From: Cyclobacteriaceae bacterium
GTDB taxonomy: Bacteria; Bacteroidota; Bacteroidia; Cytophagales; Cyclobacteriaceae
Reading direction: 5' to 3'
DNA length: 64,000 nt
Assembly: GCA_016786495.1 (NCBI GenBank)
Contig: JAEUUJ010000077.1
Span: 1 to 64,000 of the forward strand
The position numbers were made by a program, and so were the translations under genes. The notes beneath the pieces were generated by a model. It was not told where the DNA came from. It did no database searches and was given only the letters and a program-made list of their open reading frames with translations. Shown one piece after another: positions 8,024-34,288 of this stretch. Every line of letters starts with the position of its first letter. Within the stretch, counting starts at the first letter, position 1.

Positions 8024-9001
8024 ATGAAAGAAGTAACCGTTGGCGTAGATATTGGAGGGACCAATACCAAATTCGGAATTGTAGACCGCGAAGGAAACGT
8101 CCTGTTTCAGGATAGTATTTCAACTCAAGGATTCGAAGAATTCCGCGATTACCTCAGGGGGTTATCCGATGCCCTGCGCAAAGGCCTGCAGGCCCCGGGT
8201 GCAAACTATAAGCTGCTGGGAATTGGGGTGGGTGCCGCTAACGGTAATTACTATAAGGGAACCATCGAGCATGCCACGAACCTGAAATGGAAAGGCATCA
8301 TTCCCCTGGCAGAGATGCTTCGCGAAGAGTTTAATGTTCCTGCGCTCGTCACCAACGATGCCAATGCAGCGGCGGTGGGCGAAATGATTTACGGAGCAGC
8401 GAAAGGATTAAAAGACTTTATCGTGATCACACTGGGTACCGGTCTGGGCAGTGGCCTGGTGGCCAACGGACAATTGATTAACGGTAAACACGGCATTGCC
8501 GGAGAGTTGGGCCATACCACCGTGAATTATGCCGGTCGTTATTGCAACTGCGGAAAACGAGGTTGCCTCGAAACGTATGTTTCAGCAACCGGAATCAAGC
8601 GAAGCGTTTATAAACTGCTGGCTGATCACCTGGAGCCCAGTGAATTGCGCGGCATCAGTTTCGACAACCTGAATACCAAAATGATTACCGAAGCCGCCAG
8701 ACGCGGAGATATAGTCGCTCAGGAAGCTTTTGAATACACGGGACGAATTCTCGGAACCAAGCTGGCGGAAACGGTAGTTCACACCGATCCGGAAACGATC
8801 TTTTTATTTGGAGGTTTATCGTTGGCGGGTGACTTGATCTTTAAGCCAACCATCAAACACATGGAAGCTAACCTGATGCCGGTGTTCCGGGGTAAGGTTA
8901 AAGTGTTGCCCTCAGGACTTCAGAATCAGGCCGCACCGATTTTAGGTGCGAGCAGTTTGGTTTGGAATTACCTGGAAGAAAAGGGCAACGTGCTGGCGTA
9001 A
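8024..9001 (+). CDS. ROK-family glucokinase
   Basis: This is a cytoplasmic ROK-family sugar kinase, most likely glucokinase (glucose + ATP to glucose 6-phosphate). In its 325 residues are the phosphate loop DIGGTNTKFG (9-18), the TNDANAAAVGE segment with the catalytic Asp112, the zinc-site His164 in ELGH, and the CNCGKRGCLE cysteine cluster (174-183). There is no N-terminal helix-turn-helix, so it is a kinase and not a ROK repressor. Glucose specificity is inferred from ROK family conservation and the adjacent pgi and pfkA; N-acetylglucosamine or another hexose is possible. A weak TTTG-N21-TAATCAGG promoter precedes it (7978-8010). It ends 21 bases from the convergent GH57-like gene. Confidence 0.9.
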   Translation: MKEVTVGVDIGGTNTKFGIVDREGNVLFQDSISTQGFEEFRDYLRGLSDALRKGLQAPGANYKLLGIGVGAANGNYYKGTIEHATNLKWKGIIPLAEMLREEFNVPALVTNDANAAAVGEMIYGAAKGLKDFIVITLGTGLGSGLVANGQLINGKHGIAGELGHTTVNYAGRYCNCGKRGCLETYVSATGIKRSVYKLLADHLEPSELRGISFDNLNTKMITEAARRGDIVAQEAFEYTGRILGTKLAETVVHTDPETIFLFGGLSLAGDLIFKPTIKHMEANLMPVFRGKVKVLPSGLQNQAAPILGASSLVWNYLEEKGNVLA

Positions 9002-9022
9002 CACGCACTTAAAATCACGGTA

Positions 9023-11419
9023 CTAATTCACTTTCACCCCGAGGTTCTCACCCAACAGACGGAACTGTTTCACCCATTCCTTTTTTGTACTAAGCGCTTC
9101 AATGTCTTCTTCGCGGGAAATTTCGAAATAAAGATTCTGGCTCTTATATAAAATAGGCTCAAGCCTGAATTGTTTTAACAACGGGAAGACGCGGTTAAGC
9201 CGGTCGATGCGTTTGGTGTTACTGCGCTCCGCACTGATGCGCTTCAATTCCTTGAAGATGCTCTCCCCTGCCATGCGCGAGATTTTTCCCGGATCCTCGA
9301 TCTTCAAATCCCACTTCACGAGTTCGTGCATTACGCGCTCCATCTCCTTGATGTTGATCTTCTCTCCATTAAAACAGTTCTGCAGGTCGGCATTCAGGAT
9401 ATATTCGAACGAGGTAATGTATGCCTTGGGGGTTGGTATGTCGTTGTTTGCCAGCGCATTGACCAACGGGTAATCGTGGTTATAAACCCTTCGCAGCGAT
9501 TCCTCCAGCTCACGCATGCTTTGCTGTGTAATCATGTCGAGGACTTTACGCTTCTCATCTTTGAACAATTGCCAGAGCGTATAATTGACCGGACCAAAGT
9601 ACGTTTGCATCAACCCGATAACATCCCCTAACCGGCCTTCGTCAAAAGCCGTGAGAACGCGCATCTGCATGCTGGCAAACTTATCGGGCTCCATATCAAG
9701 CGAAATGTTACCCATGATATTGTGCTTGCCCATGTGCATCACTATAAAGGTGAACTGCTTTTCAGAACGGGTCACGTTCGATTTAACTTTCGTTATTCCC
9801 AACGCCAGCTTCTGTTCGCCCGCTTCTTTCCGCATGAAAAACTCATTCGTTGCGGTGTAATTGAATAAGGGAGAATTTTCAGGATCTTCTTCAAACAGCG
9901 AAGCCACAGCATAATGCATTCCCACACGCGCGAGGTTTGTTTTGGAAGGCACAACATACTTCTGGTAAATGTTGGCGCCATTTTCCAATACCGGAATATT
10001 ACTTGGAGCTGCCTCCAGTCGTCTGATAAACTCATCTTCGAGCTCTCCGCCTCCCGATTGACTGACTAACTGAATCGCACGACACGCATATTGCATGATT
10101 TGCGTGGTTTCGATTCCGGAAATCTCATCAAAGAACCAGCCACAGCTTGTGTACATGAGCAGCGCATTACGCTGCATTTCCATCAAGCGCAGTACGCGGT
10201 TCTGTTCCACATCTCTCGTGCAGTGATCCCGCAAGAATCTTCTCACGGTTTCATCGTCACGTCTTAAAATAATATTGATATAGTCGTTTCGCGCGGCCCA
10301 CGGATCGCGTAAAATCTGCGAAGCCTCGCGTTCATACACTTCGTTCAGCTTGTCACGCAACCAGTCGAGTGATTCGCGCAGCGGCTTACGCCATTTCTGG
10401 GTCCACCCTTCGCGGCCGCCACTGTTGCAACCACAGTCATTACGCCAGCGCTCCACACCGTGTACGCAGCTCCATGAACTATTTTCATGAATCTGAATCT
10501 CATACCCCACCGTTACTTTCGAAATAAACTCTGCGTAGTTGGTAATGTGAGCGTGTTGCTGCTGATCGATATAATCGAGGCAAAATGCCAGCGCCATATC
10601 GCCATGCTTGTGGTGATGACCATACGTTTCGCCATCGGTAGCAATATGAACAAGTTGTGTTTCCTGCGAATGCGGGTCGAACGAATTCAGTAGTGCGTGT
10701 GCAAATTTCTGACCGTCATTCAGCAGTCCGTTAAACGCAACACCCTGAGCGATATCGCCATTGTAAAAGAATAAAACGATCGACTTTCCTGAGGGAAGTT
10801 TGCACAAATATGGCCGGCGGGTATCCACGCCACTGTCGCGCAACTCATGCCAATGCTCATCGCCCACGCGGCGAAACGCTTTTGCCTGCCGGGGCGCGAG
10901 CACGGTAAACCGGATGTCGTGTTCGGCGAGCAGTTCAAGTGATTCGGTATCAACTGCACTTTCCGCAAGCCACATCCCTTCCGGCTTGCGCTTGAAACGA
11001 TGTTCGAAATCGCGAATTCCCCAAACGATCTGCGTAATCTTGTCGTTCCGGTTAGCCAGCGGCATGATGATGTGATTGTACACCTGCGCCATAGCCGAAC
11101 CATGGCCCGAGAAATGTGCAACGCTTTCCCGGTCAGCCTCTAAAATAGCTTCATACGTCTCGCGGTCATATGCCTCCATCCACGAAAGCAGGGTCGGGCC
11201 GAAATTGAAACTGATTCTTGAATAGTTGTTGATGATATCCTTGATCACGCCATTCTCCAGAATCCGGGAGGCCGAATTCGGCGCATAACACTCTGCCGAA
11301 ATGCGTTCATTCCAGTCGTGGTACGGATGTGCGGAATCCTGAACTTCGATCGCCTCAAGCCAGGCATTTTCACGGGGTGGCTGATAGAAATGCCCGTGTA
11401 TACAAATGTACTTTTCCAA
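9023..11419 (-). CDS. GH57-like protein with DUF3536 domain
   Basis: This 798-residue cytoplasmic protein (no signal peptide) combines an N-terminal glycoside hydrolase family 57 barrel with a C-terminal DUF3536 region. The GH57 start motif HGHFYQPPREN lies at residues 8-18, followed by GHGSAMAQ, the ATDGETYGHHHKHGD segment and a WRNDCGCNSGG segment. GH57 members cleave or transfer alpha-glucans; the exact activity of DUF3536 proteins is not known to me. It is the last gene of the six-gene GlgE operon, 21 bases after glgB, so a role in storage-glucan turnover or branching is inferred. The start codon is TTG: an in-frame TAG lies 12 bases upstream and no ATG intervenes before the conserved motif. 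Confidence 0.85.
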   Translation of the reverse strand: MEKYICIHGHFYQPPRENAWLEAIEVQDSAHPYHDWNERISAECYAPNSASRILENGVIKDIINNYSRISFNFGPTLLSWMEAYDRETYEAILEADRESVAHFSGHGSAMAQVYNHIIMPLANRNDKITQIVWGIRDFEHRFKRKPEGMWLAESAVDTESLELLAEHDIRFTVLAPRQAKAFRRVGDEHWHELRDSGVDTRRPYLCKLPSGKSIVLFFYNGDIAQGVAFNGLLNDGQKFAHALLNSFDPHSQETQLVHIATDGETYGHHHKHGDMALAFCLDYIDQQQHAHITNYAEFISKVTVGYEIQIHENSSWSCVHGVERWRNDCGCNSGGREGWTQKWRKPLRESLDWLRDKLNEVYEREASQILRDPWAARNDYINIILRRDDETVRRFLRDHCTRDVEQNRVLRLMEMQRNALLMYTSCGWFFDEISGIETTQIMQYACRAIQLVSQSGGGELEDEFIRRLEAAPSNIPVLENGANIYQKYVVPSKTNLARVGMHYAVASLFEEDPENSPLFNYTATNEFFMRKEAGEQKLALGITKVKSNVTRSEKQFTFIVMHMGKHNIMGNISLDMEPDKFASMQMRVLTAFDEGRLGDVIGLMQTYFGPVNYTLWQLFKDEKRKVLDMITQQSMRELEESLRRVYNHDYPLVNALANNDIPTPKAYITSFEYILNADLQNCFNGEKINIKEMERVMHELVKWDLKIEDPGKISRMAGESIFKELKRISAERSNTKRIDRLNRVFPLLKQFRLEPILYKSQNLYFEISREEDIEALSTKKEWVKQFRLLGENLGVKVN

Positions 11420-11440
11420 AATGCGTAAAAGCTAAATGTA

Positions 11441-13408
11441 TTAAGAACCCGCCTCTAATTCAAATTCGTTATCTTCTTTATGCAACTTAAGCACCGTCAT
11501 CCCTAACGGTGGTAAGGTTATCGACACCGAATAATCCTGATGGTGATACTTAACGGGTGAGGTGACCAAATCGCCAATATTCAGCACACCGCTTCCACCG
11601 TATTTGAGATTATCGGTATTAAAAACCTCGCGCCATTTTCCGCGAACCGGAACCCCGATGCGATAATGCTGGCGCGTTTCAGGAGTGAAATTGCAAACCA
11701 CAATCAATAAATCTTCTTTTTTGTCAGACTTACGCTGATAAGCAATTACGCTGTTCTCGCTGTCGGAGTAATCGATCCACTGAAACCCGCGCTGATCAAA
11801 CGCATAGTGATACAGCGCCGGCTCCGACCTGTAATGAACGTTCAGTTCAGACATGAAGGTTTTGATGCCGGCATGCGGTGCATACTGCAACAAATGCCAG
11901 TCGAGGCTTTTATCGTGACTCCACTCACCCGACTGCCCGATCTCACCGCCCATGAATACAAGTTTTGTTCCGGGATGGGTAAACATATACCCGAACAACA
12001 ATCGAAGATTGGCAAAACGTTGCCATTCATCGCCCGGCATCCGGCCGAGCAACGATCCTTTTCCATGCACAACTTCATCGTGCGACAGCGGCAACATGAA
12101 ATTCTCCGTAAATGCGTACATCACGCTGAACGTGATTTCGTTCTGATGGTACTTGCGGTGAATCGATTCTTTTTTGAAATACTGAAGCGTATCGTGCATC
12201 CAGCCCATCATCCATTTCTGGCCGAACCCTAATCCGCCCAGGTACGTTGGCTTGGAAACACCAGGCCACGCAGTCGACTCTTCTGCAATGGTAACAGCAT
12301 CCGGGAAGTTTGCATAAACGGTTTCATTAAACTCTTTCAGGAAGCTGATGGCTTCCAGGTTTTCATTACCACCAAACTGGTTCGGTATCCACTCGCCTGC
12401 TTTGCGCGAATAATCGAGATACAGCATACTCGCTACTGCATCCACGCGTAAGCCATCGATGTGATACAGGTCAAGCCAGAACAACGCGTTGCTGATCAGG
12501 AACGACCGCACTTCGTTACGACCGTAATTAAAAATGTAACTCTTCCAGTCGGGATGAAAGCCCTTTCGGGGATCGGCATGTTCATACAGATAAGTGCCGT
12601 CAAACTTATAAATGCCATGTTCATCGCCCGGGTAGTGTGAGGGAACCCAGTCGAGAATTACGCCAATGTTATTCTGATGAAGCGTATCGACCAACTGCAT
12701 AAATTCTTCCGGAGTACCGAAACGGCTTGTAGGCGCGTAATATCCTGTGATCTGATAACCCCATGAACCGAAAAAGGGATGCTCCATTACCGGAAGAAAC
12801 TCTACATGTGTGTAGTTCATTTCCTTCAGGTAGCTAACCAGTTCAACCGCAAGCTCGACATAACTTAGCGACCGGTTTCCGTCTTCCAGTTTTCTGCGCC
12901 ACGACCCAATGTGTACTTCATACACCGAATAAGGCTTTGCCAGGTCGGCCGTCTCCTTTCGGTTGGTCAGCCACTTTTTATCGTTCCACTTATAGTCGGT
13001 ATTCCAAACAACTGATGCCGTTTTCGGTGCCACTTCTGCGTAAGCGGCAAACGGATCTGCCTTTTCGAGATACTCACCGGTTGCGGAGTGGATTGCATAT
13101 TTGTACACCTCCCCTTTCTGCAGGCCGGGTACAAATACTTCCCAAATGCCGGATTCATCCCAGCGCGGATTCATTTTCGTTTGTGAATCATTCCATCCAT
13201 TGAAGTTCCCGATAACCGAAACGGATTTCGCGTTGGGTGCCCATACTGCGAAGTAAACTCCCTTTTTGCTTCCAAAGGACGTCACATGCGCACCAAGTTT
13301 CTCATACAACCTGAAGTGCTTTCCGGTTTTAAACAGATGAATGTCAAATTCCGTGAGCAGGGTTTGACTTTCGTCTGAACCACTTTTTATTGAAGTCTTT
13401 TTAGCCAT
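11441..13408 (-). CDS. glgB: 1,4-alpha-glucan branching enzyme
   Basis: GlgB moves an alpha-1,4 chain to a 6-position, making branches in glycogen-like glucan. The 655 residues contain a CBM48 domain (about 45-140, with NFNGW) and a GH13 barrel with the catalytic residues intact: nucleophile Asp323 in GLRVDAVASMLY, acid/base Glu376 in TIAEES, and the third Asp in LSHDEVVHGKGSL. A C-terminal all-beta domain follows. The YLDYSR motif is typical of branching enzymes. ATG at 13408, 23 bases after the TreS-maltokinase gene. In the GlgE pathway GlgB branches the linear chains that GlgE extends, so its place in this operon fits. Confidence 0.96.
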   Translation of the reverse strand: MAKKTSIKSGSDESQTLLTEFDIHLFKTGKHFRLYEKLGAHVTSFGSKKGVYFAVWAPNAKSVSVIGNFNGWNDSQTKMNPRWDESGIWEVFVPGLQKGEVYKYAIHSATGEYLEKADPFAAYAEVAPKTASVVWNTDYKWNDKKWLTNRKETADLAKPYSVYEVHIGSWRRKLEDGNRSLSYVELAVELVSYLKEMNYTHVEFLPVMEHPFFGSWGYQITGYYAPTSRFGTPEEFMQLVDTLHQNNIGVILDWVPSHYPGDEHGIYKFDGTYLYEHADPRKGFHPDWKSYIFNYGRNEVRSFLISNALFWLDLYHIDGLRVDAVASMLYLDYSRKAGEWIPNQFGGNENLEAISFLKEFNETVYANFPDAVTIAEESTAWPGVSKPTYLGGLGFGQKWMMGWMHDTLQYFKKESIHRKYHQNEITFSVMYAFTENFMLPLSHDEVVHGKGSLLGRMPGDEWQRFANLRLLFGYMFTHPGTKLVFMGGEIGQSGEWSHDKSLDWHLLQYAPHAGIKTFMSELNVHYRSEPALYHYAFDQRGFQWIDYSDSENSVIAYQRKSDKKEDLLIVVCNFTPETRQHYRIGVPVRGKWREVFNTDNLKYGGSGVLNIGDLVTSPVKYHHQDYSVSITLPPLGMTVLKLHKEDNEFELEAGS

Positions 13409-13431
13409 AGTTTTTTATCGGTTAGGCATTG

Positions 13432-16400
13432 TTATTTCTTCTTTCTCTTATCCGCCTGCTCCTTTTCCTGCAAATAGCGACCCATATGATAGAGTATACC
13501 CCGTAACGGAACTGCAGCCCAGTCAGGCCGGCCATTTAATTCGTATCCGAGTTCATAAATCGACTTCTCAATCAGGAAGATTCGAATGAGTAGATCATTC
13601 TCGGCCGACAAGCTTCTCCCCATTCCCATGCGTTCCATGTACGCACCGAGATAAAAGCGGCTTACATAATGCTGCCATTGCTCCGCCCAAGCCTCGAGGA
13701 ATTCCATGTCGCGTTCGCGGTAGTTCTCATTCAACAGTATTTTGCCGAACGCAGCATAATGGAATGATCGCATCATGCCCGCCACATCTTTGAACGGACT
13801 TTTCTTCAATCTCCTTTCGTTAAACGAGAAACCGGGTTCACCTTCAAAGTCGATGATCACGAAGTCCTTACCGGTAAACAACACCTGACCCAGGTGGTAA
13901 TCGCCATGGATGCGTGTTTTAACGGCATTAATTTTTATCTGGTAGATTTCACTGAAGCATTCCAGCACCTGCGGCTCCATTTCAAGAACGCGCTTGGCCA
14001 GTACTTTGCTGGACTCATCGAGTTTTGGTATCGATGTTTTCAACAGGTTAAACCGGTCGCGAACAAGCTTTCGGAAAGAAGAATACAGCGACCGTTGATA
14101 ATTCGGCGTGAACGTTTCGGGTGCAAACGCGGCACTTGAAGAATCGGATGCAAGCGCCAAGTGCATTTCGGCCGTGCGCTGACCGAGACGAACAACCCGT
14201 TCATAAAATCCACGGCCGATAAACTCCTGGATAATATCCGGAGCTTCTTCAAAGTGAATGGACGGTGTGTTCACCAGTTTCGGCAACTTCTCCTTCTTAG
14301 CCTTGAGGATGACACGCTCGAAGAACCGGCCAACGGAGTCGGTCGACATAACCCATGAGTCACCCTGGTTTTCGACTTTCTCCTGCAGCAACCCGAACAC
14401 AATGGTTTGCCCCTCGTTGTCTTTGTACTCCACACTTCCCGCATACCGCGGAGAGTTGCCAAAGTTTGTATGCTCTGAAAGGAATCTGACCAATTCAAGG
14501 TCCGGATTGATTTCCTTCTCAATCTTACGATAGAACTTGAAGAAATACAGATCATTGTAAATGATCGAAGTATTGCTTTGCTCGGCTTTCAGGATTTTAG
14601 ATTCAACCTTATTGTTTGGAATCTTGATCTTGTTGAAAACGCTGGAGTTGAATTGCAGCTCACCTCCCTCATCGTCTTCGATCGATACCTTCTTATCCAT
14701 ACTCTGAAGCAGAAAATCCCGGAATATCCGGTCATAACTGCTGTCGAAGATAAAGCCGCTTTTCCCCTGAATGTCCGCGCGACAAATCACGCTTTGCGCC
14801 ATGTACTCTGCGCGATCGAGGATGTGCTCCGATAAAATAAACGTCATCGGCAGAAAGTACAGCTCCGGCAACCGTTGCACGTAATGTACCTCTATTAGTG
14901 AAAGGTAATGCGTTCCGCCATCAATCTTGAGCGGGATAACCTTATGCAAGGCAATCTTATTGATCACTTTTGCCTTCCCGCCAAACCACCGGCACTTCTT
15001 CATGAACACCGGAAGGATTTTGCGTTCGAATGTTCGCTGCTCGTTGTAGTTATTAAACAATTTCTCCCACGATACATCGGTTTTTAAAACCGGAAGTTCC
15101 GTGTTTCCGTCTTTCTTATCCTTTTGCTCGGCCTTATCAATCTGGAACCAGAAATAACCATAAGGACCAACGGTAATGGAATATTGACCCTCGCCAATGT
15201 TGATAAACCGGTTCTGACTGAATACCTCGGTAACTTCGCAATTTTTAAAATCGGAGAGATTCAGGGTAGTCGCCTGTGAGAACTGTGAAAGATTGGCAAC
15301 CACAATAATTTGCTGCTTTTCGTCGGACCGCAAAAAACAAAGTACCTTGTTGTTATCGGTGTCGATGAATTTCATTTCTCCCCTGCCAAACACCTGAAGA
15401 CGTTTACGCATAGCAATCACGTTCCGCATCCAGTACATCAATGACGAGGGGCTTTCGTCCTGAGTAGCTACGTTCACCGATTCGAACCGGTACACCGGGT
15501 CGGTAATCACAGGGAGATAAAGCTTTTGTGGGTTAGCAGTTGAAAACCCTGCGTTGAGGTTCATGTTCCACTGCATGGGCGTACGCACTCCGTGCCGGTC
15601 TCCCAAATAAATGTTATCCCCCATTCCGATCTCATCGCCATAATAGATTACGGGTGTACCGGGCAACGAGAATAATAACGTATAAAGCAGTTCAATCTTT
15701 CTCCGGTCGTTGCCAAGCATGGGCGCCAAACGTTTTCGAATCCCGGTATTGAACTTGGTCATCGCATCATCGGCATATGCCTTGAAGAGGTAATCCTTTT
15801 CTTCTTCGGTAACCATCTCCAGGCCTAGCTCATCATGGTTCCGGAGAAACAAGGCCCATTGATTGCCTTCGGGTGTCTCCGGTGTTTGCTCAATGATATC
15901 GATGATCGGGTAACTGTCTTCCGTACGCAGCCCAAGAAACAAACGCGGCATCAACGGATAGTTGAAATTCATGTGGCATTCTTTACCATCACCGAAGTAT
16001 GCCGCGGCATCTTCCGGCCAGAGGTTCGCTTCTGCCAGCAACACCACGTTTTTATAATGCCGGTCAACGTGCGTTCTGATTTTCCGTAAGAAAGCGTGCG
16101 TTTGCGGAAGGTTTTCACAATTCGTTCCTTCTTCTTCAAAAAGAAACGGAACAGACGATAACCGGAATCCGTCTACCCCCAGCTTGCACCAGAAGTCGAT
16201 GATCTTGATTACTTCCATCTGCACTTCCGGATTCTCGTAATTCAGTTCCGGCTCGTGCCGATAGAAACGATGCCAGTAATACGACTTCGCTTCGGTATCC
16301 CAACTCCAGTTGCTCGACTCTTCACTCTGGATGATTACCCGCGCATCCTTATATTTATCCGGTGTGTCGCTCCATACATAGAATTCCCGAAAACGTGAAC

Positions 16401-16779
16401 CGGGCTTTGCCTTTCGCGCGCGCTGAAACCAGGCGTGCTGATCAGATGTATGGTTGAGCAGGAGTTCGGTGATCACTTTTATTCCCCGGCTGTGCGCGTC
16501 TTTAATGAACGCTTTGAAATCAGCCAGCGTGCCGAAATCAGGATGCACATCGCAGTGGTCGGTAACATCATAACCATCGTCTTTCAACGGTGACGGATAG
16601 AACGGTAACAACCAGATTGTGTTGACGCCCAGATCTTCGAGGTAATCAAGTTTCTGAATCAACCCCTGAAAATCGCCTGTACCATCGCCATTGCTGTCGT
16701 AGAATGCGCGCACGGATAGTTCGTAGATGATGGCATCTTTAAACCATAACGGGTCGGTATGTTTGGTTTGCTTGCTCAT
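13432..16779 (-). CDS. TreS-maltokinase fusion; TreS nucleophile replaced by Ser
   Basis: The N-terminal ~550 residues are a GH13 trehalose-synthase (TreS) domain; the C-terminal ~500 are a maltokinase (Pep2/Mak) domain. Together they normally turn trehalose into maltose and then into maltose 1-phosphate, the GlgE donor. Length (1115) and motifs such as EEEGTNCENLP, GVRTPMQW and YYGDEIGMGDNI confirm the TreS family. The region-II motif, however, reads GFRLSSVPFL where TreS enzymes have GFRLDAVPYL: Ser208 (TCG, 16156-16158) occupies the nucleophile position. Glu250 and Asp316 remain. The kinase motifs HGDYHLGQV (Asp960) and DFEGEP (Asp977) are intact. I infer a working maltokinase and a dead or altered TreS. 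It sits 2 bases after glgE in the operon. Confidence 0.93.
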   Translation of the reverse strand: MSKQTKHTDPLWFKDAIIYELSVRAFYDSNGDGTGDFQGLIQKLDYLEDLGVNTIWLLPFYPSPLKDDGYDVTDHCDVHPDFGTLADFKAFIKDAHSRGIKVITELLLNHTSDQHAWFQRARKAKPGSRFREFYVWSDTPDKYKDARVIIQSEESSNWSWDTEAKSYYWHRFYRHEPELNYENPEVQMEVIKIIDFWCKLGVDGFRLSSVPFLFEEEGTNCENLPQTHAFLRKIRTHVDRHYKNVVLLAEANLWPEDAAAYFGDGKECHMNFNYPLMPRLFLGLRTEDSYPIIDIIEQTPETPEGNQWALFLRNHDELGLEMVTEEEKDYLFKAYADDAMTKFNTGIRKRLAPMLGNDRRKIELLYTLLFSLPGTPVIYYGDEIGMGDNIYLGDRHGVRTPMQWNMNLNAGFSTANPQKLYLPVITDPVYRFESVNVATQDESPSSLMYWMRNVIAMRKRLQVFGRGEMKFIDTDNNKVLCFLRSDEKQQIIVVANLSQFSQATTLNLSDFKNCEVTEVFSQNRFINIGEGQYSITVGPYGYFWFQIDKAEQKDKKDGNTELPVLKTDVSWEKLFNNYNEQRTFERKILPVFMKKCRWFGGKAKVINKIALHKVIPLKIDGGTHYLSLIEVHYVQRLPELYFLPMTFILSEHILDRAEYMAQSVICRADIQGKSGFIFDSSYDRIFRDFLLQSMDKKVSIEDDEGGELQFNSSVFNKIKIPNNKVESKILKAEQSNTSIIYNDLYFFKFYRKIEKEINPDLELVRFLSEHTNFGNSPRYAGSVEYKDNEGQTIVFGLLQEKVENQGDSWVMSTDSVGRFFERVILKAKKEKLPKLVNTPSIHFEEAPDIIQEFIGRGFYERVVRLGQRTAEMHLALASDSSSAAFAPETFTPNYQRSLYSSFRKLVRDRFNLLKTSIPKLDESSKVLAKRVLEMEPQVLECFSEIYQIKINAVKTRIHGDYHLGQVLFTGKDFVIIDFEGEPGFSFNERRLKKSPFKDVAGMMRSFHYAAFGKILLNENYRERDMEFLEAWAEQWQHYVSRFYLGAYMERMGMGRSLSAENDLLIRIFLIEKSIYELGYELNGRPDWAAVPLRGILYHMGRYLQEKEQADKRKKK

Positions 16780-16781
16780 GC

Positions 16782-18737
16782 TTACATGTTTGATTCGTGT
16801 ATTGACACTGTAAACAAATGAAAGGGAAGTTTATAGGGATTTAACTCCACGTAGTTCCACTCCTGCGTCCAGGTATAGTATTCATCGGTCATGATGTCGT
16901 GAAGCTTCACATTGAGTTTATCGCCCAGCTTCAGCAGGGCCTTTGGAAGCTGCAGGTATCCTGCGTGTTTGTTATGCGGGTCAAGGTTCACAACCGTGAG
17001 AACAATATCGGAAAGATCATCGGTCGCTTTTACATATGCGATCAGGTTAGCATCACTCACTTCGCAGAAATGAATATTCCAGGTTGATTGCAGCGCAGGG
17101 TGGTTTTTACGCGCCTTGTTGATGATCGTCATGATGTCGGTCATCCGGTTGGTGCGTTTCCAGTCATGCTTCTTGATTTCGTACTTCTCGGAATCGTGAT
17201 ATTCTTCCTTGTTCTGAACGGGAATGTTGTCGTAAAACTCATACGCAGGACCGTACACTCCGTAGTTCGATGACAAGGTTGCAGCCAGCGCGAGGCGCAG
17301 AATGAAGATATTCTCGTTCTGATACTGAAGGTGGTACGGAAGAATATCGGGCGTATTCGGCCAGAAATTTGGCCGGAAATAGTTTCGCGAAGGCCCGTGC
17401 ACCAGTTCGTTCACATACGCGGTTAATTCTTCTTTGCTCACACGCCACGTGAAATAAGTATACGATTGTGTAAACCCTGACTTGCCCAGCGAGGCCATAA
17501 TTTTTGGTCGTGTAAAGGCTTCCGAAAGGAAAATAATATCCGGGTAAAGTTTATGTGTTTCCGCGATGGCCCACTCCCAGAAAGGAATTGGCTTCGTGTG
17601 CGGATTATCAACCCGGAAGATGGTTACACCTTGCTCAACCCAATACAGAATAACCGACAGCAGTTCATTCCAGAGCTCCTGCCAGTTAGCGGTTTCGAAA
17701 TTAAACGGATAGATGTCCTGATACTTCTTGGGCGGATTCTCTGCATATTGAATCGATCCGTCCGGACGCTGCTTAAACCACTCGGGATGTTCTTTTACAT
17801 AGGGATGATCGGGCGCACACTGGTACGCGAGGTCAAGCGCAATGTCGATATTCAATTTGCGCGCTTCCGCGATGAGTTTTTTATAATCTTCGAGGGTTCC
17901 GAGTTCCGGATGAACAGCTTTGTGTCCGCCTTCATCACTTCCAATAGCCCAGGGCGAACCTGGTTCACCTTGTTCCGCGCGGACGTTGTTATTCTTTCCC
18001 TTCCGGTGGATTTTCCCGATGGGGTGAATCGGTGGCATGTACAATACATCAAATCCCATGGAAGAGATTCGCGGCAACAGCCGGATGACATCTTTAAACG
18101 TTCCATGCTTGCCCTCCAGCGAAGCGGAGCGCGGGAATAACTCGTACCAGCTGCTGAACGCAGCCTTAGGAAATTCAACGATGATCTCGAACTCGCGGTC
18201 TGCGCTTGTTTCAAATTCGCGCAGCGGATGGCGGTGCACCAGCTTTTCAAATTCAGGCGACAAAACCCATTTTACACGATCGGCATACTCGTATTTGCTA
18301 CTGAGTTTGGCACCCGCCCTGGTTACCTCATGATCCTTATCTTCTGATATCTTCTTCAACAACAGCTCCCCTTCCTGCAATTCAACGGAAACATCTACGC
18401 GGGCATGCGCCTTCTTCTTGAACCCGTCATACCACGTGTCGAGATGATCAACCCATGCCTGCACCGTGAACACATACGGAACTTTTTCGGTAACATAAAA
18501 TGATGCGTTCCAACTATCGTTGCCGAGATGCTGCAGTTCAACGGTGTTCCATTGGCCGGAGCCCTTTTTCTTGTAAAGAACTTCTGCCCGGATATGGTCG
18601 TGCCCGTCACCAAAAATGTCGGCCGTAACATCTACGCGCTCGCCCACGGTTCGTTTGGCCGGGTACCGACCGCCATCTACCTGGGGTTGAATATTTTCAA
18701 TGATTACACGCGATTGGCCTTTGAGATTGATCTTCAT
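16782..18737 (-). CDS. glgE: Alpha-1,4-glucan:maltose-1-phosphate maltosyltransferase
   Basis: GlgE transfers maltosyl units from maltose 1-phosphate to the non-reducing end of alpha-1,4-glucan. The 651-residue product has the N-terminal all-beta domain (about 1-115), a helical insert, and a GH13_3 barrel. Family-specific motifs are MPPIHPIGKIHRKGKNN, CAPDHPYVKEHPEWF and FRVDNPHTKP with nucleophile Asp377; acid/base Glu406 is in FLSEAFTRP. No signal peptide, so cytoplasmic. It lies 12 bases after a lipoprotein amylase gene and 2 bases before the TreS-maltokinase fusion that supplies its substrate; glgB follows. This arrangement identifies the GlgE route of glucan synthesis with high confidence. 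Confidence 0.97.
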   Translation of the reverse strand: MKINLKGQSRVIIENIQPQVDGGRYPAKRTVGERVDVTADIFGDGHDHIRAEVLYKKKGSGQWNTVELQHLGNDSWNASFYVTEKVPYVFTVQAWVDHLDTWYDGFKKKAHARVDVSVELQEGELLLKKISEDKDHEVTRAGAKLSSKYEYADRVKWVLSPEFEKLVHRHPLREFETSADREFEIIVEFPKAAFSSWYELFPRSASLEGKHGTFKDVIRLLPRISSMGFDVLYMPPIHPIGKIHRKGKNNNVRAEQGEPGSPWAIGSDEGGHKAVHPELGTLEDYKKLIAEARKLNIDIALDLAYQCAPDHPYVKEHPEWFKQRPDGSIQYAENPPKKYQDIYPFNFETANWQELWNELLSVILYWVEQGVTIFRVDNPHTKPIPFWEWAIAETHKLYPDIIFLSEAFTRPKIMASLGKSGFTQSYTYFTWRVSKEELTAYVNELVHGPSRNYFRPNFWPNTPDILPYHLQYQNENIFILRLALAATLSSNYGVYGPAYEFYDNIPVQNKEEYHDSEKYEIKKHDWKRTNRMTDIMTIINKARKNHPALQSTWNIHFCEVSDANLIAYVKATDDLSDIVLTVVNLDPHNKHAGYLQLPKALLKLGDKLNVKLHDIMTDEYYTWTQEWNYVELNPYKLPFHLFTVSIHESNM

Positions 18738-18749
18738 GAATTAAAAAAA

Positions 18750-20297
18750 CTATTGAGTAAGTATAATGGTGGCATACGCGGACAGCGTAAGCTCGTTTTC
18801 GTTTAAGATTACTTCTTCACCGGACGCAAATCCGACCTTTCTAAAAGCGCTTACATCCGGACCGAGTTTTATGGTTACACGGTCCGCACTGATATTGTGA
18901 ATCACAAGCTCTGTCGCAGAATCAAAGGTGCGTTTAAATCCAACAATCGACGAGGGCAAGCCGGGTAAGGCTGCTATCGAACCAAAGGTTAGCGGCTTGC
19001 TGGAGTTCCGGTACTGAATCAGGTTGCGATAATGCTGGAGGAGCGATTTCGTGTTATCCGATTGCGTTTTAACATCCGCAACCGAATCTGCCAGATTAAA
19101 TTTCGGTGTCATCCAATGGGCTGTAATTTTTTCATCGCCCCATAGGAAAGGTTCGCGGATAAACTCATCGGGCTTCGTTCCGCGCATGCCCAGTTCTTCA
19201 CCGTAGTAGACGTAAGGCGCACCGGTGAGCGTGAGCAGAATAGAGGCTGCCACTCTTGCTTTGCCGGGATCGTTACCCAACTGACTCATGATCCGATTTT
19301 GATCGTGATTGGTCAGAATAGGCGCATCAATAAACTCCGGGTTGGAGGATTTAAAGAAGTCGATCTGCTCCACGTAATTCTCAATCAACTCCAGCGAGTC
19401 CTTTCCGGTATTAAGTGTTGCAATTATCCGACTTCCCAAATCGAAGTTAAAAAGTGCAGGCATCCCCTTGGCGAAAGGTGACACCTCGTTGCGATCTGTC
19501 GAATAAACCTCTCCTACCATGTAGATATCGGGCTTGATCTTAACAAGCTGCTCGCGATACCACGCCCAAAATTGATGACAGTCGTACGCGCGGTCGCTCG
19601 GATACAAATGCCGTGCAGCATCAAACCGGAAGCCGTCAACGTTCATTTCTTCGATCCAAAATCGGGCGACACCAACCATTTCATCGCGCACGCTATGATT
19701 ATCAAAATTCAGGTCGGGCATGTGACTGGAAAAGAAACCGTAGTAGTGCTCGGCAGTCGAATCGCCATTCACTTCATGCCATTGACGGATGTTATCCGAA
19801 TCAACCGTTACTTTCTTTTTTGAAATCTGATCGCGGATTGAGTCTTTCTTCGCCCACACAAAGTAATCCCGGTAGGGTGAATTTTTGTCGGCCATGGCCT
19901 GTTCAAACCAGGGATGATTGGTAGCGGTGTGGTTCAGCACCAAGTCGATGATCACATGAATGCCGCGCTTGTGTGCTTCAGTGGTAAACGTTTTAAAATC
20001 TTCCAGCGTGCCGTAATCCGGATGAATGTTCTTGTAATCCGAAACATCGTATTTATGATAGGACGGTGAAGGCATAACCGGCATGAGCCAGATACCGTTC
20101 ACGCCTAACGATTCAACATAATCCAGCTTTTGAGTGAGCCCTTTCAGATCGCCTTTTCCGTCACCATCGGCATCCGCAAATGACAGAACAAAAATCTCAT
20201 ACTTCACGCCATACGGCCACGCATCGCTCACAGTCGTTTTTGATCCGCACGACATGCAGACAAGAACAAGAAAAACTATGGCGAAAATACCTCTCAT
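18750..20297 (-). CDS. Lipoprotein GH13 alpha-amylase family enzyme (second)
   Basis: A GH13 enzyme of the alpha-amylase/oligo-glucosidase type, anchored as a lipoprotein: the signal peptide ends in VCMSC with Cys17. The barrel starts at about residue 28 (VKYEIFVLSFADADGDGKGD). Catalytic residues are intact: Asp226 in DGFRFDAARH, Glu263 in VGEVY, and the Asp of TNHDQNR. It has the TNHPWFEQA segment common to oligosaccharide-active members. An upstream extension in frame lacks the signal peptide; I chose ATG 20297 because it gives the lipobox and overlaps the previous gene's stop as ATGA, a sign of translational coupling. Likely role: periplasmic trimming of maltodextrin. The exact product is not predictable. 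Confidence 0.9.
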   Translation of the reverse strand: MRGIFAIVFLVLVCMSCGSKTTVSDAWPYGVKYEIFVLSFADADGDGKGDLKGLTQKLDYVESLGVNGIWLMPVMPSPSYHKYDVSDYKNIHPDYGTLEDFKTFTTEAHKRGIHVIIDLVLNHTATNHPWFEQAMADKNSPYRDYFVWAKKDSIRDQISKKKVTVDSDNIRQWHEVNGDSTAEHYYGFFSSHMPDLNFDNHSVRDEMVGVARFWIEEMNVDGFRFDAARHLYPSDRAYDCHQFWAWYREQLVKIKPDIYMVGEVYSTDRNEVSPFAKGMPALFNFDLGSRIIATLNTGKDSLELIENYVEQIDFFKSSNPEFIDAPILTNHDQNRIMSQLGNDPGKARVAASILLTLTGAPYVYYGEELGMRGTKPDEFIREPFLWGDEKITAHWMTPKFNLADSVADVKTQSDNTKSLLQHYRNLIQYRNSSKPLTFGSIAALPGLPSSIVGFKRTFDSATELVIHNISADRVTIKLGPDVSAFRKVGFASGEEVILNENELTLSAYATIILTQ

Positions 20298-22069
20298 TCT
20301 TCGATCGTAAAGACGTATGCGCTGTAGGCAGGAAGGTTCATGGAAAGCGTCAGTCCGGTTAATACCTGATCTGAATTTTTCCACAGCACATCGCGCAATT
20401 TATAGTTCTTGTCAGCTTTAAGCTGAAGTGCCGCGACTACGTTTTCAGGGATAACCAGTTTCACCGGCTTTACTTTTGAATCGAAGTTTGAAACGATCAG
20501 CAGCTTTTCCGATCCTGCATGGCGTACGAACGCATGAACATCATCGGAAACCGTCAGATCAAAATACCCACCGGACACAATTGCCGGATTCGTTTGGGAA
20601 AGGTTAAGCAGCGTGCTGTAGAATTTACGCAGGCTTTTCTGCTGTTCACTCAGTAAGGCGCCATCGAACGCACCGCCATTCATCCACTTTTGATGTTCGG
20701 GGACACCCCAGTAATCGAAAATGGTTGTCCGGCCGTCTTTTCCACCAAAGCCTTCTGCTCCGGCTCCCGGCTCGCCCACTTCCTGGCCGAAGTAAATCAT
20801 CACCGGACCCTGGTCAATCGTTGCACTGACTACCATGGCCGGAACAATTTTCCATGCGCTGCCGGCAAAGTCGGGCGATGCAATACGCTGTTCGTCATGG
20901 TTCTCAAGAAAGTGAAGCATGTTCGCGTTGATTCCGTCCAGGCTCTTCTGGATCACATCAATATCCTTTGCACTGCGTTTGTTGTTGATCAGGCCCCGAA
21001 GCGTATCGTATAACTGAACCTTGTCGTAGAGGTAATCGAACTTGCCGGTTTCAATGTAGTTTCGGTATTGCGCGGGATTATAAATCTCCGCCACGAAAAC
21101 GATCTCCGGGTTAACCGCTTTTACCTGCGGGATCGCCCAGTTCCAGAATTCAACCGGAACCATCTCGGCCATGTCGCACCGAAAACCATCTACCTTCTTG
21201 TTCGCCCAGAACACAAGAATGTCTTTCATCTTAATCCATGTGTCGGGAATCGGCTCGAAGTAAGCCTTGTTATTGTTCTGAATATCAACACCATAATTCA
21301 GTTTAACGGTTTCAAACCATTCATTCACACCCGGACTTGCCGTAAACTGATTGTTGCCGGTAACCTTGGCGGGAGTTTCGTTGAACTTGCCATCGGCAGC
21401 CGGATAAAGCGTATCCGCAGGAATGGATTTGAAGTCTTTGGGTACAACAAATGACTCACCCGGCAGGTAATAAAAGTTATTATTGGCCGAGAACTTAACC
21501 GTTTTATCATCCGTTTCCCCGAGGTCTTTAACCCCGGCAGGTTTCGCATCCGACTTGTATGCCCGGGCTATGTGATTCGGCACAAAATCGATCAGCACTT
21601 TCAGGCCGTTGCTATGAGTCCGCTCTACGAGTTGCTCGAACTCTTTCATCCGATCGGGTACGTTAACCGCCAGATCGGGATTCACATCGTAATAGTCTTT
21701 GATAGCATAAGGCGACCCAGCCCTGCCCTTAACAACGTCGGCATCGTCAAGCGCGATACCATATTTGCTGTAGTCGGTTAAAACCGCGTGTTCAATGACA
21801 CCGGTGTACCATACGTGGGTAACGCCCAGATCCTTAATCGATCGCAGCGCAACTCCGTTAATGTCGTTGAATTTCCCCACACCATTTTCGGCCAGCGTTC
21901 CATAAGGCTTGTTTAGGGCAGTCTTATTCCCGAAAAGCCGGGTCATCATCTGGTACACAACCATTTTTGTCGGCTTATTTTTCATAGGAGGTACGGGCGG
22001 AATTTTTTCAGCTTGCCGGGCACATCCAAACACGATAATGCACAGCAAAAAGGGGGCAATTTTGACCAT
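20294..22069 (-). CDS. Lipoprotein GH13 alpha-amylase family enzyme (first)
   Basis: The first gene of the six-gene GlgE operon encodes a 591-residue GH13 lipoprotein (lipobox IVFGC, Cys16). The barrel begins near residue 35 (MVVYQMMTRLFG) and carries Asp299 in DGFRCDMAEMVP, Glu328 in FVAEIY and Asp in LENHDEQR, so it should be active. A C-terminal beta domain follows (about 490-591). It probably cuts imported maltodextrin in the periplasm to maltose-sized products. Its protein differs clearly from the second amylase, so the pair is not a recent duplication. ATG at 22069. A LacI-type operator lies 55 bases upstream and a possible promoter ends 5 bases before the start codon. Confidence 0.9.
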   Translation of the reverse strand: MVKIAPFLLCIIVFGCARQAEKIPPVPPMKNKPTKMVVYQMMTRLFGNKTALNKPYGTLAENGVGKFNDINGVALRSIKDLGVTHVWYTGVIEHAVLTDYSKYGIALDDADVVKGRAGSPYAIKDYYDVNPDLAVNVPDRMKEFEQLVERTHSNGLKVLIDFVPNHIARAYKSDAKPAGVKDLGETDDKTVKFSANNNFYYLPGESFVVPKDFKSIPADTLYPAADGKFNETPAKVTGNNQFTASPGVNEWFETVKLNYGVDIQNNNKAYFEPIPDTWIKMKDILVFWANKKVDGFRCDMAEMVPVEFWNWAIPQVKAVNPEIVFVAEIYNPAQYRNYIETGKFDYLYDKVQLYDTLRGLINNKRSAKDIDVIQKSLDGINANMLHFLENHDEQRIASPDFAGSAWKIVPAMVVSATIDQGPVMIYFGQEVGEPGAGAEGFGGKDGRTTIFDYWGVPEHQKWMNGGAFDGALLSEQQKSLRKFYSTLLNLSQTNPAIVSGGYFDLTVSDDVHAFVRHAGSEKLLIVSNFDSKVKPVKLVIPENVVAALQLKADKNYKLRDVLWKNSDQVLTGLTLSMNLPAYSAYVFTIEE

Positions 22070-22074
22070 CGTTA

Positions 22075-22107
22075 AAGATATACCAATGGTTCAAAAGGGT
22101 CGGTAAA
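22075..22107 (-). promoter_or_regulatory. Putative promoter of the GlgE/amylase operon
   Basis: On the minus strand TTTA (22104-22107), a 21-base spacer and TATATCTT (22075-22082) approximate the Bacteroidota promoter. The -7 box is 5 bases from the ATG, so the transcript would be nearly leaderless. Confidence 0.35.
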
Positions 22108-22123
22108 ACGCGGGGATAAATTT

Positions 22124-22141
22124 TCCGCAAACGGTTGCGCT
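22124..22141. promoter_or_regulatory. LacI-family operator upstream of the GlgE operon
   Basis: TCCGCAAACGGTTGCGCT matches the perfect palindrome upstream of susC at 15 of 18 positions. It lies 55 bases before the first amylase start and overlaps the stop codon of the upstream small membrane protein gene. Confidence 0.65.
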
Positions 22142-22511
22142 AGGCAGCTTTCTTGCGAACTGATCTGAAAAAGCAGAGAACCAGAACCAACTGATTGATT
22201 AGCAAGCCCAGGAACTCGCGTGACTCTTCAATGTAGGGGAACTCCATTTTCAAAACATCATCGAACAGAACGCTTTTATCAGGCTGGCGAAGCCACTCCG
22301 CTACACCTGGGAAAAGAATAATCATGTACACCAGAAACAATACACCAAGGCCCGCCATGAGCCAGCGGTTGTAGTAGTCGAAGATGGCCATCACGCTGAC
22401 AACGGCCATTACACCATAAATCAAAATCCACAAAATCGGATCGGGATCGTTCACCTGAAGTGCGGCAAACGCCAGGAACATGATTGCGAAGAATATATTG
22501 AGATACTTCAT
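22140..22511 (-). CDS. Transmembrane-220-like small membrane protein
   Basis: This 123-residue protein has about four hydrophobic segments and resembles the transmembrane 220 family (TMEM220) of unknown function. The N-terminus shows the typical FAALQVNDPDPILWILIYG segment, followed by a second helix, an NRW turn, a third helix, and a C-terminal helix near LLINQLVLVLCFF. I chose ATG 22511, not the longer frame from 22568, because a GGAAGG ribosome-binding site lies 8 bases upstream and the first membrane helix begins right after. It is on the same strand as the GlgE operon and ends 70 bases before it. No functional link is evident. Confidence 0.7.
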   Translation of the reverse strand: MKYLNIFFAIMFLAFAALQVNDPDPILWILIYGVMAVVSVMAIFDYYNRWLMAGLGVLFLVYMIILFPGVAEWLRQPDKSVLFDDVLKMEFPYIEESREFLGLLINQLVLVLCFFRSVRKKAA

Positions 22512-22689
22512 GACTTTTCCTTCCGGTAGTAAAATAGCAAACTGCGTTACCTTTCGTGGCGATGACAAATCCGGTGAGATACTTCTCCGAATTCAATAAG
22601 CACCTACACGCTTAACTGGCTAAAAGTATTGTTTCTCGTTGAAATTTGAAAATCCCGGCTGGTTACTCAGATCTAAACTTACCGTATCA

Positions 22690-24225
22690 ATGAATCTTAA
22701 ACCAACCCCTGTTCTCATGGCCAGACTTTCCATGACGTTATGTATGACGTTTCTGTTTGGATCGCTCTTCTCGCAAATAATTTACGTCACCCAGTCCGGC
22801 AGCGGATCACTAACGGGATCAAGCTGGTCAAATGCCTACCCTGCCGCCATGCTGCAGCAGGCTATCGATGAAGCATCATCGGAAGTATGGGTAGCCGCGG
22901 GAACATATCGCACCACTTCAGGATCCGATCGCGCGATTTCATTCCATATGAGAAACGGGATAGCGATCTATGGGAGTTTTGCCGGGACGGAGACTCAACT
23001 ATCACAACGTGACCTGTCGGCGGGATTGACCAGCATACTCACGGCTGAAATCGGAAGCTCTGGAATTTCTGACAATAGTTATCATACGATTCATAATTCA
23101 GGATTAAATAACTCTGCAGTTATTGACGGATTTATCATAACCGGAGCCAATGATGATCGTGAAGCGACCGAGACGGAAGGGCTTGGAGGTGGGATTTACA
23201 ACAATGGAAATGCAGGTGTTTGCAGTCCAACCATTCGCAATTGCGTAATCTTCAACAACCGTGCGGTGTTCGGTGCCGGCATTTTCAATAGTGGCTACCT
23301 CGGAGGTAATGCAAGTCCGACAATTACAAACTGCGTAATTGCTTTTAACACGGCAACCAAGGGTGGTGGCGGAATCGATAATTTCGGACTAGCCGGTGTT
23401 GCGAGTCCGGTTATTACGAATACAATCTTCTATGAAAACACCGCTACCGAACGCGCTGGCGCGATGTATTGTTGGGGTGGTAACAACGGTAATGCGAGTC
23501 CGATAGTGCTGAATTCAGTCTTTGTTAACAACCGTGCTACGGATGGAGGAGCGATTGTATCGGATCGGCTTAACGCATCGACAGGAAGTTCCGGAAGTAG
23601 CGACCCGACTCTTAAGAATTGCATCTTTCTGAACAACACAGTAACCGGCACGGGGCCTCAATTCCTGCTGCTGGGTGAAGCCACGATTAACATCACGTAT
23701 TCCGATATCGATTTGGCAGGCCAAACAACTCCGAACGTTATTACAGGTTCGGGTACCGGAAATATCTCGGCCAATCCTGCGTTTGTCAATATTTCTGCAG
23801 CAGCAGGTGTTGACAACATTTGGTTAACAGCAGACGATGGATTGCGACTACAGTCGAATTCGCCTTGCGTGAATTCAGGTAACAATGTCGGAACACCCGA
23901 CACCGATATTCTTTCGAATCCTCGTGTTGCAGATATGACAGTAGATATGGGTGCTTACGAACAAGCGGGAGTGGTAACCGGTCTTGAGGAGCTTTCAACA
24001 AATCAGGCAAACTTCTTCCCCAACCCGGCATCCGAAAAAATTGTGTTTGAAGCAATGCAGTCCGTGCGGGAAGTTGAAGTATTAACAGCACTGGGAAAGC
24101 CAGTGACCCTCATAACTATAAATGAAAACGAAGTGAACGTGCGTCATTTGCCCGAAGGAATGTACTTACTCGTAATCCGATCAGGCAAGCAGACGATGGT
24201 ACGAAAGCTGCTGATCAAGCGATAG
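22690..24225 (+). CDS. Secreted parallel beta-helix protein with T9SS sorting domain
   Basis: A 511-residue extracellular protein. After a signal peptide (FLFGSLFSQ), the body is a right-handed parallel beta-helix: repeated rungs contain GGGI/GAGI and N-x-ASP-x-I-x-N motifs (for example NNGNAGVCSPTIRNC, NSGYLGGNASPTITNC). The C-terminal ~75 residues form a type IX secretion sorting domain, from NFFPNPASEKIVF to a Lys/Arg-rich end. MGAYEQ before it is common in this protein class. No catalytic motif of a polysaccharide lyase could be recognised. ATG 22690 was chosen because the longer frame begins with TTG and delays the signal peptide. It ends 3 bases from the convergent TonB receptor gene. 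Confidence 0.82.
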   Translation: MNLKPTPVLMARLSMTLCMTFLFGSLFSQIIYVTQSGSGSLTGSSWSNAYPAAMLQQAIDEASSEVWVAAGTYRTTSGSDRAISFHMRNGIAIYGSFAGTETQLSQRDLSAGLTSILTAEIGSSGISDNSYHTIHNSGLNNSAVIDGFIITGANDDREATETEGLGGGIYNNGNAGVCSPTIRNCVIFNNRAVFGAGIFNSGYLGGNASPTITNCVIAFNTATKGGGGIDNFGLAGVASPVITNTIFYENTATERAGAMYCWGGNNGNASPIVLNSVFVNNRATDGGAIVSDRLNASTGSSGSSDPTLKNCIFLNNTVTGTGPQFLLLGEATINITYSDIDLAGQTTPNVITGSGTGNISANPAFVNISAAAGVDNIWLTADDGLRLQSNSPCVNSGNNVGTPDTDILSNPRVADMTVDMGAYEQAGVVTGLEELSTNQANFFPNPASEKIVFEAMQSVREVEVLTALGKPVTLITINENEVNVRHLPEGMYLLVIRSGKQTMVRKLLIKR

Positions 24226-24228
24226 CAC

Positions 24229-27419: not shown

Positions 27420-27421
27420 AG

Positions 27422-31090: not shown

Positions 31091-31109
31091 TGTAGAAATG
31101 TATAGGTAA

Positions 31110-32509: not shown

Positions 32510-32512
32510 CGA

Positions 32513-32554
32513 ATTAGGTATTAGGTATTAGGCATTAGACATTAGACATTAGAG
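32513..32554. repeat. Heptamer array (ATTAGGC type), left flank of four-helix-bundle gene
   Basis: Six tandem 7-bp units in register: ATTAGGT, ATTAGGT, ATTAGGC, ATTAGAC, ATTAGAC, ATTAGAG. The array overlaps the 3' end of the four-helix-bundle gene, whose last codons and stop lie inside it. An inverted array flanks the other side of the gene. Confidence 0.85.
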
Positions 32555-32970: not shown

Positions 32971-32980
32971 AAACGTATCT

Positions 32981-33008: not shown

Positions 33009-33028
33009 CCTGATTATCTAACAATACA

Positions 33029-34183: not shown

Positions 34184-34223
34184 TGACTTTGTCAGGTTTT
34201 CAGGTGACCGGCAATATATCCAA

Positions 34224-34256: not shown

Positions 34257-34288
34257 CGTTATATTGACACACTTTTATCTAAACCGCT

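Follow-up and report, generated by a model that had tools for sequence, protein, structure and literature searches.

Introduction

In the GlgE pathway, fusions of a trehalose synthase (TreS) domain with a maltokinase (Mak) are regarded as the point at which trehalose enters. The TreS-Mak fusions of Estrella lausannensis and Pseudomonas aeruginosa PAO1 are reported to have TreS activity and to carry trehalose through to maltose 1-phosphate (PMC7935935, PMC11046441), and the TreS activity of the PAO1 enzyme has been called surprisingly low (PMC8084333). Here, we describe a treS-mak fusion gene in a stretch of 64,000 nucleotides from a Cyclobacteriaceae bacterium (assembly GCA_016786495.1, contig JAEUUJ010000077.1, positions 1 to 64,000; hereafter the window). 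Its product resembles the two characterized fusions in architecture, and PAO1 has the same set of glgE, treS/pep2 and glgB genes, but the catalytic nucleophile of the TreS half is gone. We propose, with a probability of roughly 0.6, that this protein joins a functional maltokinase to a TreS pseudoenzyme that arose in nature and is shared by a whole clade, and that the TreS half would serve as a non-catalytic sugar-binding or regulatory module.

Results

The treS-mak gene occupies positions 13,432 to 16,779 of the minus strand, on which its operon neighbors and the Sus-like cluster described below also lie, and encodes 1115 amino acids; the region around Ser208, as read from this open reading frame, is GVDGFRLSSVPFLF. 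The TreS part, a GH13 barrel followed by a C-domain (residues 1-552; 15,124-16,779), gives a whole-domain match to the NCBIfam profile TIGR02456 (residues 12-547; 830.5 bits against a cut-off of 678.35), and its alignment with the best-matching solved TreS, 5x7u, spans residues 8-552. At the GH13 nucleophile position, the codon at 16,156-16,158 is TCG and encodes Ser208, while all three solved TreS alignments that we inspected (5x7u, 5h2t and 4lxf) have Asp in this column. Codon, translation and structural alignment thus confirm the replacement of the nucleophile that a first, sequence-only reading of the window had put forward, and the four residues it listed as retained (Glu250 and Asp316 in the TreS half, Asp960 and Asp977 in the kinase) are all present in the translation.

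To place this change among its relatives, we assembled TreS-Mak sequences from 99 related genomes and from overlapping sets of genomes of the family (390), the order (390) and the class (395), together with a scan of named genomes. After matches spanning fewer than about 700 query residues and identical cores were dropped, the 253 matches above 600 bits gave 164 distinct rows, the window included. Position 208 is Asp in 72 rows and another residue in 92 (Pro 36, Ala 28, Ser 18, Gly 8, Thr 2). Because the non-Asp state is common to 92 distinct rows, sequencing or assembly error, or chance, at codon 208 is excluded. By identity and search group, 90 of the Asp-less rows belong to the family of the window and carry Ser, Ala, Pro or Gly; the named records among them are mostly titled Cyclobacteriaceae or Flammeovirgaceae, and the named isolates with an Asp-less gene come from Chryseolinea, Ohtaekwangia, Chryseosolibacter, Dawidia, Parachryseolinea and Pseudochryseolinea, including Chryseolinea serpens DSM 24574 and Ohtaekwangia koreensis DSM 25262. 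The two other rows are Saprospiraceae sequences with Thr, at 54-55% identity, one of them from a record of Phaeodactylibacter luteus. In this pair (Thr208, Ser209), positions 147, 317 and 321 are altered too, and the -1 pocket described below is retained.

A phylum-wide search gave matches in 100 of 395 genomes, part of which were read at position 208. Among the further matches read from the family, order and phylum sets, in searches confined to this phylum, no additional Asp-less TreS was found: Asp is present in 41 of 41 sequences and in the 75 readable of another 76, the remaining one stopping short of the column, so that all 116 further readable sequences carry it. Likewise, we found no report of a natural Asp-less TreS in the literature covered by our search, which left subscription journals and preprints mostly outside.

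The distribution of the Asp and non-Asp states requires one change on a FastTree phylogeny of all 164 rows, one on a 103-row tree that includes 47 of the 92 Asp-less rows and one on a 43-row tree with an outgroup and a mixture model (18 Asp-less rows), with a support of 100 for the Asp-less clade in each case; all three are fast analyses (a quick method or FastTree) whose support values are solely of the SH type. The Saprospiraceae pair is sister to the remaining Asp-less clade. Repeated independent losses are unnecessary, given that a single change suffices on these three trees. When all six states at position 208 are scored together, the 103-row tree requires 22 changes. The residue is small in every member of the clade, and since its codons are CCN, GCN, TCN, GGN and ACN, mutational closeness may contribute to this pattern. 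Together, these observations fit a single ancestral loss of the Asp followed by drift among small residues. The alignment and tree that had been suggested as a check on the original observation therefore place the non-Asp state as fixed in one clade, with Ser as one of the residues (Pro, Ala, Ser, Gly and Thr) found there.

The remainder of the TreS active site falls into two parts. We matched window residues D67, H110, E250, H315, D316 and R395 to D63, H106, E251, H318, D319 and R398 of Deinococcus radiodurans TreS (DrTS) by motif and alignment and took R206 as the region-II Arg, the R206 assignment and the R395/R398 match being our own mapping; the DrTS numbering and the +1-subsite role of its Tyr213 are from PMC4257617. 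On the -1 side, none of the 90 clade rows departs from D67, H110, R206, H315, D316 or R395, and all seven residues, E250 included, are retained in both Saprospiraceae sequences. The general acid/base Glu250 (16,030-16,032) is Glu in 88 of the 90 rows and Asp in two, and the third catalytic Asp, Asp316, lies at 15,832-15,834. The +1 side differs. Of the residues matching DrTS Tyr213, Glu320 and Glu324, the window retains Glu317 and Glu321 and has Phe212 (16,144-16,146) in place of the Tyr; across the 90 rows, position 212 is Phe in 83 and Tyr in 7, Glu321 has become Asp in 16 and Glu317 Ser in 3. Ser209 (16,153-16,155) replaces the canonical Ala (Ser in 76 rows, Asn in 13, Ala in one; Ser in both Saprospiraceae), Ile149 has become Met, Leu or Val in 57 rows, and the nearby Thr319 is Gly or Ala in all 90, Gly in the window. 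As Ala209, Tyr212 and Thr319 are invariant in the 72 Asp-bearing rows, the earlier claim that all surrounding TreS motifs are kept holds for much of the site and fails at these three positions. As judged from the alignment, then, the portion of the pocket that holds a single glucose is retained, and the nucleophile and part of the isomerization side are changed. No compensating carboxylate is present at position 208 or gained in region II in the clade rows scanned; acidic residues were gained at six positions, all elsewhere (77, 81, 185, 442, 473 and 515).

Despite the missing nucleophile, the barrel has the signature of a maintained domain. Over 17 clade pairs, its median ratio of nonsynonymous to synonymous substitution rates (dN/dS) is 0.012, compared with 0.018 over 16 canonical pairs, and for the kinase the medians are 0.020 (16 clade pairs) and 0.055 (16 canonical pairs), all of them rough values, with dS high or near saturation and the pairs related to one another. 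These ratios indicate that the TreS barrel is under purifying selection, with no decay. We rejected pseudogene decay on the low dN/dS together with the mostly open frames. Among rows of at least 60% identity, those from G137, G406, G287 and G317 list internal stops within the match. Canonical rows have 230 barrel positions fixed at 97% or more; in the clade, 151 of these are still fixed at that level, 9 have switched and 70 are relaxed or mixed.

The maltokinase domain (residues 566-1096; 13,492-15,084) matches TIGR02457 at 441.9 bits against a cut-off of 375.05, as well as the maltokinase structures 4o7o, 5jy7 and 4u94, and contains the HGD and DFE motifs, whose roles, along with the residues needed in the mycobacterial enzyme, are described in PMC4306142. 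The catalytic Asp960 of the HGD motif (13,900-13,902) is Asp in 87 of the 90 clade rows, with one Asn and two gaps; the Mg-binding Asp977 of the DFE motif (13,849-13,851) is Asp in 88, with two gaps; and the window has Gln965 beside them. Lys1072, Tyr1075 and Tyr1079, which we equate with Lys413, Tyr416 and Tyr420 of Mycobacterium vanbaalenii Mak by spacing, without direct alignment, are conserved in 85, 84 and 85 of the 90 rows, with 5 gaps. The kinase half thus appears intact across the clade and is presumably active. Asp loss in one half and residue conservation in the other support, at the level of the clade, the earlier proposal that TreS activity was lost while the kinase stayed intact.

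The mirror case also occurs, namely TreS-Mak fusions that have the TreS nucleophile and lack kinase Asp960 or Asp977. Such a kinase Asp is missing in 9 of the 72 Asp-bearing rows of the main alignment and in 1 of 41 sequences of one further set; in the other further set, for which Asp960 alone was scored, it is lost in 11 of 76, the nucleophile being unreadable in one of these (L364).

The genome content of the clade separates two groups. From the clade genomes with an Asp-less copy, we picked 53 by hand, most of them highly complete and together no random sample, and called single-copy those with no second TreS-Mak match at an E-value of 1e-150 or better. In 36 genomes, the Asp-less protein is the only TreS-Mak match, and 17, including the genome of the window, have two copies, the second being read as Asp-bearing in 17 of 17. 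The second TreS-Mak of the window's genome is 50% identical to the first, has the normal motif DGFRLDAVPYL, and lies beside TreY and MalQ. TreY is over its cut-off in all 17 two-copy genomes and in none of the 36 single-copy genomes (Fisher P 3e-14, ignoring kinship), compared with 3 of 14 control genomes. The corresponding counts are 16 of 17, 0 of 36 and 8 of 14 for MalQ, and 14 of 17, 5 of 36 and 5 of 14 for OtsA (PF00982). Since the listed completeness of the 36 genomes is at least 95%, missing data alone are unlikely to account for the absence of TreY and MalQ. GH65 is found in 52 of the 53 clade genomes and 4 of 14 controls, and GlgA (TIGR02095) is over its cut-off in 0 of 53 clade genomes and 7 of 14 controls.

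Two side observations concern these gene sets. Outside the window, in its own genome (C80:11747-19483), TreY and MalQ are read in one open frame of 1457 amino acids next to the Asp-bearing TreS-Mak, and similar joint frames of about 1400-1470 amino acids occur in several two-copy genomes. Also, all 53 clade genomes have a short frame of about 270-340 amino acids that matches the N-terminal half of GlgA below the cut-off (for example, G000:C10:3570-4241).

These counts bear on the suggestion, made from the window's sequence, of a maltose-fed GlgE pathway independent of trehalose. At the level of the clade, the suggestion is supported by the 36 single-copy genomes, with TreY and MalQ over the cut-off in none and OtsA in 5; for the window's own genome, which has a second, Asp-bearing TreS-Mak, TreY and MalQ, it does not hold. 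Because that genome is of the two-copy type, the claim of trehalose independence rests on its single-copy relatives.

The Asp-less gene sits in a conserved operon. It is flanked upstream by GlgE maltosyltransferase (16,782-18,737; GlgE_dom_N_S and GLGE_C domains), whose own nucleophile Asp appears to be present in VDNPHTKP, which we take to be the GlgE nucleophile motif, and downstream by the branching enzyme GlgB (11,441-13,408; NF003811, 976.5 bits against a cut-off of 741). This GlgE-maltokinase-GlgB adjacency, typical of a GlgE pathway operon, is found in the window and conserved in the clade. Further downstream on the same strand lies a GH57-DUF3536 protein (9,023-11,419; PF12055 and PF03065), a possible 4-alpha-glucanotransferase that carries the HGHFY and ETYGHH motifs reported for PoGH57, and further upstream are two amylase-like GH13 genes, GH13a (18,750-20,384; PF00128 and SusG_C) and GH13b (20,294-22,069), the latter with a lipobox-like start and triad motifs. 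The GTG start listed for GH13a overlaps the GH13b frame, and its true start is probably further downstream.

We compared loci on stretches of at least 12 kb, merging those of equal state and of equal identity when rounded to 0.1. GlgE lies immediately upstream in 63 of 66 Asp-less loci versus 13 of 32 Asp-bearing loci, GlgB immediately downstream in 64 of 66 versus 13 of 32, a same-strand GH57 in 61 of 66 versus 1 of 32, and a same-strand GH13b, which marks most clade operons, in 58 of 66 versus 0 of 32. By simple patterns, the triad motifs are present in 65 of 65 distinct GH13b copies and a lipobox-like start in 53 of 65, and GH13a has such a start in 20 of 37.

Elsewhere in the window, a Sus-like cluster (36,489-48,374) encodes GH65, beta-phosphoglucomutase, a secreted GH13-like protein, SusE, SusD and SusC. 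Another cluster (26,538-35,506) encodes a nucleoside/sugar symporter, a GFO/IDH/MocA oxidoreductase, two TIM barrels resembling xylose isomerase, and a large protein that combines a 3-keto-disaccharide hydrolase domain with PA14 and cytochrome c domains; it is perhaps a 3-keto-glycoside pathway. An Rfam scan of positions 8,500-24,500 returned no matches.

Discussion

Our data are best explained by a TreS pseudoenzyme fused to a working maltokinase. We suggest that an ancestor of the clade lost the Asp nucleophile once and that, because of this loss, the TreS half would form no glucosyl-enzyme intermediate and would not isomerize trehalose and maltose. The fusion would then act as a maltokinase, converting maltose from a source other than trehalose into maltose 1-phosphate, which the neighboring GlgE would polymerize and GlgB would branch. 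The -1 glucose subsite of the TreS half would most likely bind, but not cleave, maltose, the end of a glucan or some other alpha-glucoside, and the sugar-bound half might position or gate the kinase. We infer the loss of isomerase activity from the known requirement for the Asp; kinase activity, sugar binding and the source of the maltose are inferred as well.

The maltose could reach the kinase in several ways. It is possible that it is imported through the Sus-like cluster, that it is made by GH65 working in the reverse direction, or that it arises from maltodextrin disproportionation by the neighboring GH57. In this last respect, the GH57-DUF3536 homologue of Pontibacter has been suggested to be a 4-alpha-glucanotransferase (PMC11206854), and a supply based on GH57 would be the counterpart of the bypass through MalQ in P. 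aeruginosa (PMC8084333).

Among the alternatives, the one that survives best is that the TreS half is a pure scaffold, which holds the oligomer and the kinase fold together while its pocket has no role and is conserved by structural inertia. The barrel and C-domain of the fusion are indeed conserved, and Mycobacterium smegmatis TreS has been described as a docking platform for Pep2, with the Pep2 ATP site near the interface (PMC6509496). However, a roleless pocket would be expected to lose its -1 residues, and these polar residues are instead fixed throughout the clade and its Saprospiraceae sister, Glu250 nearly so, whereas only 151 of 230 canonically invariant barrel positions have stayed at 97% or more. 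The sequence-only reading had offered a scaffold as its neutral interpretation; taken alone, this is too weak, as it leaves the clade-wide conservation of the -1 pocket unexplained, and we regard it as unlikely. The closest model is the D238A variant of Mycobacterium tuberculosis TreS, which is described as lacking catalytic activity and as changing its conformation when a trehalose analogue binds (PMC11019547). Because this variant binds ligand yet is inactive, we prefer a binding module over a bare scaffold.

A second alternative is catalysis without the nucleophile. The emptied site could take inorganic phosphate or, in reverse, beta-glucose 1-phosphate, making the TreS half an inverting alpha-glucoside phosphorylase or a natural glycosynthase, which would synthesize or degrade maltose next to the kinase. 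An inverting GH13 enzyme of this kind would interconvert maltose (or trehalose) with beta-glucose 1-phosphate and glucose and hand maltose to its own kinase. The exclusively small residues at position 208, the Ser or Asn at 209 in 89 of 90 rows and both Saprospiraceae sequences, the retained acid Glu250 with Arg206 and Arg395, the near-universal GH65 and the beta-phosphoglucomutase of the window would all suit it, and GH130 offers a precedent for phosphorylases lacking a second carboxylate (PMC8950772). On the other hand, the GH13 phosphorylases described in that source are retaining enzymes of GH13_18, and GH13 is absent from its list of inverting families (PMC8950772); moreover, the variation of several +1 residues is a poor fit to a specific enzyme. 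We therefore consider both the general idea and the phosphate-site version of it improbable, even if a nucleophile-free phosphorylase would amount to a change from a retaining to an inverting mechanism within GH13. Finally, that the TreS half keeps useful isomerase activity by an unusual mechanism, in an otherwise ordinary pathway, is highly improbable despite the acid/base, the third Asp and the conserved pocket, given that M. tuberculosis TreS without the equivalent Asp is described as inactive (PMC11019547), that region II has acquired no acidic residue, and that Tyr212, whose equivalent is reported as essential in DrTS (PMC4257617), is Phe in most of the clade.

Several points weigh against the pseudoenzyme interpretation. 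A second TreS-Mak coexists in 17 of the 53 genomes, the window's included. Every single-copy genome that could be linked to a named record is a metagenome assembly, and every named isolate so linked has two copies, C. serpens DSM 24574 and O. koreensis DSM 25262 among them; no complete cultured single-copy genome was identified among the clade genomes linked to named records. In 31 of the 36 single-copy genomes, OtsA, TreY and MalQ all fall below the cut-off, in searches that did not include TreT, a GT4-type trehalose phosphorylase or GlgC-GlgM, and GH65 could in principle produce trehalose as well as maltose. Pocket conservation could reflect folding constraints, and an AlphaFold model of the whole protein (16 rows) reached a mean predicted local distance difference test (pLDDT) score of 62.6, too poor for pocket geometry. 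Last, M. smegmatis TreS is reported to have failed to raise Pep2 activity, although M. tuberculosis TreS did raise it (PMC6509496).

If the pseudoenzyme interpretation is correct, it has consequences for how such loci are read. Since the Asp-less protein exceeds the cut-off of the TreS profile by a wide margin, annotation would predict glycogen fed by trehalose, when the 90 distinct family sequences and the Saprospiraceae pair would be unable to run the trehalose step by the known mechanism.

Several described systems can be compared with this one. The MalQ bypass of P. aeruginosa likewise feeds maltose to the TreS/Pep2 kinase independently of trehalose (PMC8084333); however, P. aeruginosa keeps TreS as a second route, whereas the 36 single-copy genomes have neither MalQ over the cut-off nor a second TreS-Mak match. 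In mycobacteria, too, the GlgE pathway can be fed without TreS, but that route uses GlgC and a glycosyltransferase rather than a maltokinase (PMC4981310). In gene content, the locus of Pontibacter sp. SGAir0037 is similar, with GlgE, TreS, GlgB, a like GH57-DUF3536 and Sus genes, and it is also reported with TreY, TreZ and a MalQ-type GH77 (PMC11206854). The nearest functional parallel is again M. tuberculosis TreS-D238A, in which the equivalent Asp is exchanged for a small residue and the pocket still binds its ligand (PMC11019547). That protein is an unfused laboratory mutant, while the change described here is natural, fixed in a clade and fused to the kinase, and the clade thereby represents a natural separation of isomerase and kinase activities that would allow a direct test of whether the TreS pocket regulates maltokinase.

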